Assembly (NCBI GenBank): GCA_003575245.1
Contig: NMQN01000107.1
Span: forward strand, 1 to 12,508
Length of the DNA stretch: 12,508 nucleotides
DNA from: Candidatus Atribacteria bacterium 1244-E10-H5-B2
GTDB lineage: Bacteria > Atribacterota > JS1 > SB-45 > 34-128
Direction of reading: 5' to 3'
The translations under genes and the position numbers were made by a program. Positions 9,845-12,508 of the stretch are shown one piece after another. Each line of letters begins with the position of its first letter. Within the stretch, counting starts at the first letter, position 1. Under the pieces are notes generated by a model. That model was not told the DNA's origin. It did no database searches and saw only the letters and a list, made by a program, of their open reading frames with translations.

Positions 9845-9875
9845 TAGATAGAATAAAGATAAAGGGGGATTTATG

Positions 9876-10061
9876 ATGTTGACTCTTAAAGAAGTAGCTC
9901 AAAGGCTGAACGTGCACGAAAATACGGTAAAAAACTTTATACGGGGTGGAAAGCTGACCGGTTATAAGCTTAACCGGGTCTGGAGAATCAAGGAGAAAGA
10001 CCTGGAGAAATTTCTTAATCAAAGGAAGTGGAGAGAGAATGAAGAACTTAATCGAGACTGA
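9876..10061 (+). CDS. Excisionase-like helix-turn-helix protein (MerR/HTH_17 type)
   Basis: The 61 residues form essentially one DNA-binding domain: LTLKEVAQRLNVHENTVKNFIRGGKLTGYKLNRVWRIKEKDLEKFLNQ. This is the winged-helix excisionase fold, with helix-turn-helix at about 3-24 and the wing GYKLNRVWRI. Two adjacent ATGs exist (9873, 9876); 9876 is chosen because AAAGGGGG (9861-9868) is then at a better distance. The last 23 bases overlap the tyrosine recombinase gene in another frame, so the two are translationally coupled. Small proteins of this kind act as directionality factors or transcription regulators of the integrase next door. A purely regulatory role is equally possible, since many stand-alone HTH_17 proteins have unknown targets. 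Confidence 0.85.
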   Translation: MLTLKEVAQRLNVHENTVKNFIRGGKLTGYKLNRVWRIKEKDLEKFLNQRKWRENEELNRD

Positions 10062-10950
10062 TCTATCCTTGGCGCTTCCGAATCTACAAGAGAAGGCCCG
10101 GGAAGTCTTTGACCTCTTGGATATCTCCGAGGGGACCAGGAGAGATTATGCCTATCGAATTTCCCTATTTCTGGCCTTTATTGCCCGGAATGGTTTTAAC
10201 AAAAATAGCTTTCTGGAATTTAAGCGCAGTCTGAAAGATAGAGACGATCTGACGGTAGCCACCAAGAATAAGTATCTGGCCTCAGCCCGGGTATTCTTAA
10301 GGGAACTGACCCGCAATGGACTTATGCCCCTGGATATCACTTTAAACATCAAGGGTTTCAGGCAGAATAAGAAACACAAGAAGGAAGGTCTTTCCGAAGG
10401 AGAGATTGAAAAGATCAGGGATAAGATAAAGACCTTTCCCGATACTCCCACCAATATCAGGATCAAGGCCCTCTTCTGCCTGTTCACTTTACAGGGTTTA
10501 AGACAGATAGAGGTTATCCGGTTAAACCGGGAGGACCTAGACCTGGTAAACGGGATCGCTTATATCCAGGGTAAGGGGCAGGATGATAAGGAGATGATCT
10601 ATCTCCACCCCCAGACAGTAAAGACCCTAAGACTCTATATCCGGATCTGTCGGGTAGGCTCGGGGGCCATGTTCAAGAGTTTGGGGAATAGGAAGAGTAA
10701 CCGGTTATCCTCGAGGACCATCAAGCGGGATTTCGAGAGCCTGTTTTCCCAATTAGGAGTTAAGAAGAGTGTCCACGGCTTCCGCCATTATTTTGTCACC
10801 CACCTTTTAAAATCCTTTGAGGTCTCCACGGTGAGGAAATTCTCCCGGCACAAGTCCCTGGATATGCTGATCATCTATGATGATGAGGTCGATCTGGTGG
10901 CCAAAAAGGACAAGGTCTTTGATTGTTTTTCCGGGATGGAAGTAGTTTGA
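10039..10950 (+). CDS. Tyrosine recombinase (XerC/D-like integrase)
   Basis: This is a site-specific DNA strand-exchange enzyme of 303 residues, the size of Xer proteins and simple integrases. The N-terminal core-binding SAM-like domain covers about 14-100 (SEGTRRDYAYRISLFLAF; ATKNKYLASARVFLRELTRNG). The catalytic domain follows with the full set: R155 (LQGLRQIEVIRL), K179 (IQGKGQDDKE), H246 and R249 (VHGFRHYFVTHLL), H271 (FSRHKSL) and the nucleophile Y280 (LIIYDDEV). GGAGAGAG precedes the ATG and overlaps the end of the excisionase gene. By eye its GC content and its codons (CTG, CGG, GGG, ATC rich) are clearly higher than the metabolic genes and the primase, suggesting separate ancestry. 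It is intact, probably active, and ends directly against a dif-like palindrome. Confidence 0.92.
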   Translation: MKNLIETDLSLALPNLQEKAREVFDLLDISEGTRRDYAYRISLFLAFIARNGFNKNSFLEFKRSLKDRDDLTVATKNKYLASARVFLRELTRNGLMPLDITLNIKGFRQNKKHKKEGLSEGEIEKIRDKIKTFPDTPTNIRIKALFCLFTLQGLRQIEVIRLNREDLDLVNGIAYIQGKGQDDKEMIYLHPQTVKTLRLYIRICRVGSGAMFKSLGNRKSNRLSSRTIKRDFESLFSQLGVKKSVHGFRHYFVTHLLKSFEVSTVRKFSRHKSLDMLIIYDDEVDLVAKKDKVFDCFSGMEVV

Positions 10951-10978
10951 ATGTCACATAATCGTAATTACACGACAT
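10951..10978. other. Xer/dif-like recombination core site
   Basis: Directly after the recombinase TGA come arm ATGTCACATAA (10951-10961), centre TCGTAA (10962-10967) and arm TTACACGACAT (10968-10978). The second arm read in reverse complement is ATGTCGTGTAA, identical to the first at 8 of 11 positions. The 11-6-11 layout and the CATAA / TTA edges of the centre match E. coli-type dif sites. XerS/difSL of streptococci and XerH/difH show that a single recombinase can sit next to its own site. Recognition by the adjacent enzyme is inferred. Confidence 0.6.
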
Positions 10979-11017
10979 TGGATTTAAAGGAGAATTTATT
11001 TATTTTTTAAAGCACTC

Positions 11018-11045
11018 TTGACATTGACTCTCGGGAGGATATAAT
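11018..11045 (+). promoter_or_regulatory. Consensus promoter in the noncoding region after the recombinase
   Basis: A perfect TTGACA (11018-11023) and a perfect TATAAT (11040-11045) are 16 bases apart, the best promoter in the window. It points rightward, and no ORF begins within 400 bases downstream, so its first product is an untranslated RNA starting near 11052. Confidence 0.8.
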
Positions 11046-11051
11046 GGAGAT

Positions 11052-11507: not shown

Positions 11508-12508
11508 ATGCAAAAAGAATTAACAAAATTTTTTAAGGCGATTTTTGGAGGAATTAAAGGATGTATTGACATCAGAACTTTTGTTCATACCAGAAATAAA
11601 GATAAAAAAACTATAACGCATCAAGTAAACCATTTGTTCAGACCAATAACAAAAAGTGGAGTGATAGATTTAATATCCTTGCTAAATAGTGAAAATTTCA
11701 CTAAAAATAAAAATATTCACTTTGGAGTTGCGCCCAGGGTCATAAATACTGGAGGGCGACAAACCGGAGCTGAGAGCGATATAAAGGTGCTTCCTGTTCT
11801 TTGGTGTGACGCAGATTGCAAGAGAGAAAAACAACCCGAGTTGCCTACAAAAGAAGAAATGATGAAGAAGATAGAAAAGTTTGGAATCCCTCCAAGTATT
11901 ATAGTAGATAGTGGATTAGGCTATCATTTTTACTGGTTGCTAAAAATTCCCATACTCATCAAAAACAATAAGATACTTTTGGAAACCAAAGGAATTTTGA
12001 AGGGATTGGCACTACAATTAGGGGGCGATATTGCTGGGCAAGATATCTCTCATTGTTTGCGGGTGCCGGGAACGAAGAATATAAAGCCGGAATGCCCATC
12101 GGGGCTACTAGTAAAGATTGTAAAATTTGAACCGGATCTAAAATATGAAGTTGAAAAATTTCAGAAATATAAGGTTAAGATAGAAGATACATCCAAGATG
12201 GATATAAATTTAAAAGACGTGAAAGTGCCGGCAAGATTTGAAGAATTATTAAAGAAAAATAAAAAATTGCAGGATACCTATTTAAAACGAAATAGACCGG
12301 ACCTCTCCGACCAGACGGGTTCAGGCTACGATATGGCCTTAGCGAATTTTTTAATTCAAAAAAAATTCACTGATTCGGAAATTATAGCAATTATAAAGAC
12401 TTCTAAAACTGGCACAGAAAAGAAGATAACCCCATCGTATCTGAAAATAACCATAGGCAAAGCGAGGGCCTTTGAGGAGAAAAGAAAAAAAGGAAGAAAG
12501 AAAAAAGA
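11508..12508 (+). CDS. Archaeo-eukaryotic-type primase / RepB-like replication protein, N-terminal part (runs off right edge)
   Basis: The ATG at 11508 follows AAAGGAG (11490-11496) by 11 bases; 333 codons are visible with no stop. Residues 70-78 (IHFGVAPRV) and VLWCDADC (97-104) give the catalytic DxD pair D101/D103. SGLGYHFYWLL (135-145) supplies the motif-II histidine H140. DISHCLRVPGTKNIK (179-193) is the conserved D-x-x-LRxPGTxNxK motif of plasmid and phage AEP primases. Residues 265-300 (DLSDQTGSGYDMALANFLIQKKFTDSEIIAII) resemble the helical PriCT-like domain that follows the catalytic core. The tail is very lysine-rich. Such proteins prime or start replication of plasmids, satellites and prophages, often with a helicase fused or downstream, which would lie outside this window. 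Its lower GC than the recombinase suggests the two were assembled from different sources. Confidence 0.85.
   Translation, partial: MQKELTKFFKAIFGGIKGCIDIRTFVHTRNKDKKTITHQVNHLFRPITKSGVIDLISLLNSENFTKNKNIHFGVAPRVINTGGRQTGAESDIKVLPVLWCDADCKREKQPELPTKEEMMKKIEKFGIPPSIIVDSGLGYHFYWLLKIPILIKNNKILLETKGILKGLALQLGGDIAGQDISHCLRVPGTKNIKPECPSGLLVKIVKFEPDLKYEVEKFQKYKVKIEDTSKMDINLKDVKVPARFEELLKKNKKLQDTYLKRNRPDLSDQTGSGYDMALANFLIQKKFTDSEIIAIIKTSKTGTEKKITPSYLKITIGKARAFEEKRKKGRKKK

Follow-up and report, generated by a model that had tools for sequence, protein, structure and literature searches.

A Dif-Like Site Directly after a Xer-Like Recombinase Gene

The window (the whole stretch of 12,508 bases analyzed here) carries, in this order, metabolic genes, an HTH_17 gene, a tyrosine recombinase gene, a dif-like site, and a primase-like gene, the last four of which are positioned as follows:

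9873..10061, + strand: HTH_17 excisionase-like protein, 62 aa, overlapping the recombinase start (HTH_17, E 1.7e-15)
10039..10950, + strand: Xer-like tyrosine recombinase, 303 aa (PF00589 at residues 118–282, E 1.3e-19)
10951..10978, + strand: dif-like 11-6-11 site (leave-one-out motif score 33.0; matching sites in 26/32 loci)
11508..12506, + strand: RepB-primase/DNA primase-like protein, running off the window (RepB_primase, E 2.1e-4, below cut-off)

The palindrome at 10951–10978 reads ATGTCACATAA TCGTAA TTACACGACAT and starts directly 3' of the TGA stop codon (10948–10950) of the recombinase ORF. Rereading these bases confirmed what a preliminary description of the locus had reported, namely two 11-bp arms complementary at 8 of 11 positions, a 6-bp center and the inner edges CATAA and TTA; with one base added per side (10950–10979) the pairing is 9/12, and the site is recognizable over that span. 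The bare palindrome is within chance expectation (32 palindromes of 11-6-11 geometry with at least 8/11 matches in the 12,508 bases vs. 25.4 on average over 30 block shuffles), and the significance of the site hence rests on where it lies and on how well homologues conserve it, not on the palindrome alone. The description had also seen only one copy in the window and was right to do so, as the site is the sole strong match to the family motif and the next, unrelated match scores just 6.4.

The recombinase finds its best NCBIfam model in XerA_Arch (103.9 bits, under the cut-off of 220), and its catalytic residues (R155, K179, H246, R249, H271, and Y280) are invariant in 28/28 aligned recombinase rows. 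The 62-aa HTH_17 protein scores 43.7 bits against the TIGR01764 excise model (cut-off 28.8), matches PHROG excisionases too and is a possible regulator or directionality factor. Its placement at the recombinase start is not conserved in relatives, and in two loci (L011 and L012) a gene that is HTH_17-like by eye stands 3' of the site; the earlier suggestion that an excisionase-like gene overlapping the recombinase denotes a mobile system held for mobility, but HTH_17 is not a constant partner. The primase-like protein matches a PHROG polymerase/primase family (E 5.6e-10), which suggests a replicating element to the right. Neither end of this element is visible in the window, which also contains no complete second integrase, so that the recombinase could still be that element's integrase. 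Positions 1–330 of the window encode the C-terminal part of a serine recombinase (Recombinase domain, E 6.6e-8), ∼9.7 kb from the tyrosine recombinase and separated from it by metabolic genes.

The Site Accompanies the Recombinase in Its Relatives

Relatives of the window recombinase number 1588 proteins at E <= 0.001 among 2908 candidates, and the window protein was aligned with 38 of them, giving 30 loci from genome contigs and 1 from viral contigs; the 32 loci compared below are the window and these 31 (L001–L031). The record names span several Patescibacteria-type candidate phyla, Bacteroidota, Lentisphaerota, Actinomycetota, a Deltaproteobacteria MAG, a Woesearchaeota MAG, and others. Every relative in the phage and plasmid collections is below 60% identity, the best 20 of 130 and best 20 of 146 phage/plasmid records being 23–33% identical, and scans with the single window protein or with P0011 as query found nothing. 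By eye, the first ∼27 residues of three relatives (L031 6217–7185, P0013, and P0023) look like a serine recombinase N-terminus (MKALGYVRVSTQEQ...), as if one recombinase had replaced another in frame.

With a motif derived from 20 sites and leave-one-out scoring, 26 of the 32 loci yield one leading 11-6-11 match; the refutation that the preliminary description had named, homologues bare of any conserved palindrome after the stop, thus did not materialize. The site lies at or beyond the 3' end of the recombinase gene in 26/26 of these loci (in L002 and L018 it overlaps the gene end) and on the same strand in 25/26, the site of L013 being inverted relative to the gene. Three further loci from the genome search (G356, G074, and G248; the three top scores with a 24-site motif are 30.7, 17.9, and 17.6) likewise have the site beyond the gene on the same strand (3/3), bringing the overall counts to 29/29 loci for position and 28/29 for strand. 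Sites outside the training set also include those of L005 (32.6), L015 (27.1), L018 (26.1), L001 (19.2), L007 (19.0), and L003 (18.8), the last two being nearly identical to each other although they come from different MAGs. Shuffled contigs gave a mean maximum score of 10.0 and an extreme of 24.1 (180 shuffles, 24-site motif); five of the nine sites outside the training set, at 17.6–19.2, fall within that extreme and are by score alone suggestive.

Most of the six loci without a site have a visible peculiarity: L006 is a contig end, L026 a truncated gene, L030 a fragment, and L027 and L028 are distant relatives. L025 is a true miss, with a full-length recombinase and no site in 20.9 kb, and two loci from the genome search also combine a full-length recombinase with no site, namely G431 (on a 4.9 kb contig) and G426, which has no integrase relative either and a broken DUF6642 gene. 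The distant relatives L027 (4221) and L028 (9810), of 32% identity, lie on one contig (JAHDBT010000043.1), and the weak candidate for the site that each of them has (13.1 bits) is located just upstream of the gene, not downstream. Partial matches occur elsewhere: L024 has one of 12.6–13.7 bits between gene and site, inside the shuffle extreme of 24.1, and one with a poor right arm lies at stitched position 44373 of G020:C5, ∼24 kb beyond the island, its 23.0 bits also below that extreme. Viral scans with three versions of the motif recovered L031 again (as L095) and two new matches, L096 and L097, neither of which showed a recombinase in the part examined of its much longer contig (3.4 and 11.8 kb). 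A looser pattern run over the 30 source records matched 24 of them, together with scattered matches elsewhere of a kind that the reversed control gave as well.

Arm differences between sites track the differences between recombinases over 28 loci (Mantel r 0.70, p 0.0002), whereas the first three center bases do not (r 0.03, p 0.27). Because shared descent adds to the former correlation, its informative part is the contrast with the center, a pattern that fits arms that would be read by the protein and a center that would need to match only its partner copy. The shared site, its linkage to the gene and this covariation show, at the level of sequence comparison, that the 28-mer belongs with the adjacent recombinase, and they support the enzyme–site pairing that had been proposed from the layout of the window.

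An Element Site, Not a Host dif

The strict motif occurs in 2/379 genomes of the G008 phylum and 5/101 genomes of the G020 family, in a single copy each, whereas the recombinase (E <= 1e-30) occurs in 5/379 and 7/101. All motif-positive genomes have the recombinase (Fisher 1.4e-4 and 2.7e-7, respectively); in the Dysgonomonas family, 5/7 genomes with the recombinase and 0/94 without it contain the strict motif, an absence that holds for the arm types searched, as strict patterns miss variant arms. The confinement of the motif to recombinase-bearing genomes in two sets indicates an element site linked to the recombinase, and both a chromosomal dif and a preexisting host attB were rejected on the same grounds. 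A chromosomal-terminus role like that of XerH/difH, which the preliminary description had entertained, is accordingly unsupported, and the search it had advised for further copies in the genome, for example at the other end of the element, fared no better: the strict searches gave one site per positive genome, and none of the delimited elements showed another strong copy at its opposite end.

Relatives with visible boundaries place the site on genomic islands. Six Bacteroidota islands of 7–13 kb are bounded by repeats of tRNA 3' ends (at least 11–13 bp), and a Doudnabacteria island by a repeat of 33 bp that terminates in a tRNA-like CCA end, where ARAGORN called no tRNA. The site is internal in six of these seven islands and absent from that of G426, and in none of them does it stand at the element boundary, as a phage-type attP would. 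The G020 island resides in a tRNA-Arg gene beside a gene that is folD-like by eye; G426 has the same tRNA-Arg intact with the flank directly after it, which constitutes an empty site and the one occupied/empty pair. As read from these boundaries, the integration target in relatives is the 3' end of a tRNA gene. The possibility that the site is the attachment site of its element, which a comparison of occupied and empty loci was meant to decide, hence finds no backing in the relatives, the target of the G020 island being tRNA-Arg and not the 28-mer. Three other leads came to nothing: G028 was rejected as a second empty locus because its intact tRNA-Arg is on the opposite side of the flanking gene, the search for an empty counterpart of L014 was negative, and an insertion into comM at L012 found no support, that genome having no Mg_chelatase_C match.

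Most of these islands have an integrase of their own. Relatives of the L017 integrase, an arm-type tyrosine integrase by domain search, stand near the right end in 5/6 delimited Bacteroidota islands (blastp), although the counterpart in G023 amounts to just a 213-aa ORF; the Doudnabacteria island also has a tyrosine integrase distinct from the recombinase, located between this gene and the left repeat. Tyrosine integrases occur in L011 and L024 and large serine recombinases near the system in L001, L015, and L018. The replicon types are several: L013, with a ParA-type ATPase, HTH_36 and a 79-bp repeat near its ends, is the sole plasmid-like locus, L011 has DnaB/DnaG-type domains nearby, and L031 is a phage record with a terminase. 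The mobility of the system, which had been suspected from the window, is thus supported by the islands, in which the site is internal, by one phage record and by one plasmid-like contig. A gene common to five Bacteroidota islands and replication-like by eye matched no Pfam replication family and no PHROG and was set aside. An inverted repeat by the tRNA at the left end of the Bacteroidota islands resembles the site, but its T-run and different spacing led us to take it for a terminator.

Variable DNA between Recombinase and Site

The window, in which site and stop codon abut, represents a minority arrangement. The bases after the recombinase stop had been singled out as the place to look in homologues, and a palindrome directly at the stop was indeed found in several; general adjacency was not, as the site lies within 30 bp of the gene in 8/26 loci and 0.2–8.6 kb away in the other 18. 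On the recombinase tree, which omits L029 on account of a recombinase divided between two frames (although L029 counts for the site), 20 of 28 loci have 0.2–8.6 kb between gene and site, and the adjacent state changes 7 times, at least 5 of them on well-supported branches, compared with an average of 7.1 for shuffled labels. In L007, a tRNA-Arg (tct) and a tRNA-Phe (gaa) lie between recombinase stop and site (10903–11050), the end of the tRNA-Arg meeting the recombinase stop codon.

By position, the interval is a cargo slot, and it often holds defense-related DNA. A scan that covered part of the ORFs of each of 13 loci found in-between proteins that match PADLOC defense models in 6 loci and no match in 7: restriction–modification in L004, L020, and G074, PD-T7-3 in L017, PDC-M11A in L022, and a partial PDC-S37-type match in L001. 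Among the 10 proteins to the right of the site, L020 and L017 contributed weak PDC-S26 matches, and L017 also a homing endonuclease. Two loci, L022 and L029, agree at 98.8% over the stretch from the recombinase to 16253, diverge thereafter (2.0 vs. 0.66 kb) and resume their likeness (89%) at the site; the point of divergence may resemble the site. Of 28 Bacteroidota pairs compared over 200-bp flanks, five can be aligned to the right of the site (three of these just over 18–28 bp) and one to the left.

The second site expected from simple cassette insertion is missing: of the 17 loci tested, 16 have no left copy following the recombinase stop, and the left half-site of L031, in the top 1.3% of background, is lost after correction for the 17 tests. 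An integron array was rejected likewise, each locus having one strong site.

A Probable Resolution Module and Its Alternatives

We hypothesize that the 28-mer is the cognate core site of a resolution module in which mobile elements combine a single recombinase with a single site, a reading that is, on balance, probable. Whenever an excised or replicating circular element formed multimers, two copies of the site would stand in direct repeat; both copies would synapse, with one recombinase protomer per 11-bp arm, and strand exchange across the 6-bp center, for which a match to the element's own copy would suffice, would return monomers. In the relatives that show it, tRNA ends are the integration target, and most islands carry a separate integrase. 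Binding, cleavage, exchange across 6 bp and the resolution role are what we infer from sequence. The single site, its internal position, the several replicon types, and the separate integrase make resolution the least demanding reading, whereas the full-length recombinases without a site (L025, G426, and G431) and the fact that just L013 is plasmid-like count against it.

Resolution alone does not explain the conserved placement of the site 3' of the gene, up to 8.6 kb off, and this keeps alive the idea of a variable slot whose fixed edge would be the site. According to this idea, to which we assign a low though appreciable probability, a family of mobile elements in Patescibacteria-type phyla, Bacteroidota and others would use the recombinase and a single site to fix the edge of a defense slot, and co-integration through the sites of elements resident in the same host, with a second crossover elsewhere to follow, would swap anti-phage cargo, an integron-like function without an array of sites. 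The occupied slots and adjacency no more clustered than shuffled labels, the defense matches within the slot, the block ending at the site in which L022 and L029 differ, and the better alignable right flank all accord with cargo exchange; against it stand the single site per element, the 7 of 13 loci without a defense match, the weak defense matches to the right of the site, and centers that differ between elements, which should hinder exchange. If the window is taken by itself, the site might be the attP of its own element, the recombinase and the HTH_17 protein forming an integrase/excisionase pair. The overlap of the two genes, the excisionase matches, the lack of a complete second integrase in the window, and the ability of simple Xer-like recombinases to drive mobile elements (PMC8138268) favor this arrangement, but it is rendered doubtful by the seven tRNA-bounded relatives with their one empty site, and no locus has a pair of strong motif copies.

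Two readings dispense with an element-borne recombination system. A palindrome that serves as an operator or transcription element would account for the mostly intergenic position and for the eight loci in which it lies just 3' of the recombinase gene; we regard this as very unlikely given the 11-6-11 geometry with Xer-like inner edges, the enzyme-linked arms and free center, distances of up to 8.6 kb from the gene and, in the window, the absence of a T-run directly 3' of the 28-mer. Least probable is a host site for chromosomal dimer resolution, as XerS/difSL or XerH/difH would be: a single recombinase beside its site may be a hallmark of XerS and XerH (PMC5357621), but the recombinase is sporadic, the strict motif occurs in no genome without it in the two sets searched, and in delimited cases the site is on islands.

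Relation to Known Recombination Systems

Lox sites have a 13-8-13 geometry, unlike the present site, which is 11-6-11 with Xer-like edges and goes with an Xer-like protein. Cre/loxP of phage P1 is likewise an element-borne tyrosine recombinase with its site, and Cre acting at loxP keeps P1 monomeric, a precedent for the resolution we propose (PMC2409434); here, too, the recombinase and a single site share an element, apart from the three site-less loci named above. XerH/difH and XerS/difSL also pair one tyrosine recombinase with one dif-type site near its gene (PMC5357621), as observed here, but they act on chromosomes, whereas the present recombinase family is sporadic and on mobile elements, namely tRNA-bounded islands, and is not spread across a host group; the center of difSL is moreover 11 bp (PMC5357621), compared with 6 bp here. 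IMEX, including LME-1 of Legionella, are likewise mobile elements with a dif-like site (PMC9765430), but use the host Xer at the host dif (PMC5357621); the present elements have their own recombinase and tRNA-located islands, and their strict motif is absent from genomes without the recombinase.

Among Xer-related simple tyrosine recombinases, the “Cand” subgroup is likewise short, without an arm domain and from candidate phyla; the text of PMC8138268 available to us gives no cognate site for it, and the comparison is one by description. SE and GInt elements likewise combine tyrosine recombinases with imperfect inverted repeats around a 6-bp spacer, but with motifs at the element ends and several core genes (PMC10214605), compared with one internal site here. 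A full-text search of open PMC papers, subscription papers being outside its scope, showed, among the matches listed, no title or abstract linking this recombinase family to an internal cognate site. The present analysis hence proposes, from sequence alone, a cognate site for a large uncharacterized recombinase family, many members of which come from candidate phyla known through metagenomes. The predicted 28-bp site, with arms that vary by clade and a free center, is a directly testable enzyme–site pair that would show how elements owning an integrase stay monomeric, or how defense cargo gets shuffled.

Genes Neighboring the System

Several genes recur beside the recombinase or the site. A DUF6642 gene (L022 10849–11418 by Pfam; other islands by blastp) overlaps the recombinase stop in 7/7 Bacteroidota islands compared, that of G426 being the broken copy, and the open-access papers searched contain no mention of DUF6642. 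Just after this gene, L020 and L019 have an inverted repeat, CTTATGGGTATGC / GCATACCCATAAG, with its halves ∼150 bp apart; lying beside an island-conserved gene, it is possibly a replication origin. A small stand-alone protein with an MgsA/RarA C-terminal domain adjoins the recombinase in L018 (10924–11622), and genes resembling it by eye occur in L005 (where there is no Pfam match), G356, and G074. DUF488 genes stand directly beside the recombinase or the site in L001 (7988–8374), L003 (4393–4848), and L015 (4389–4799).
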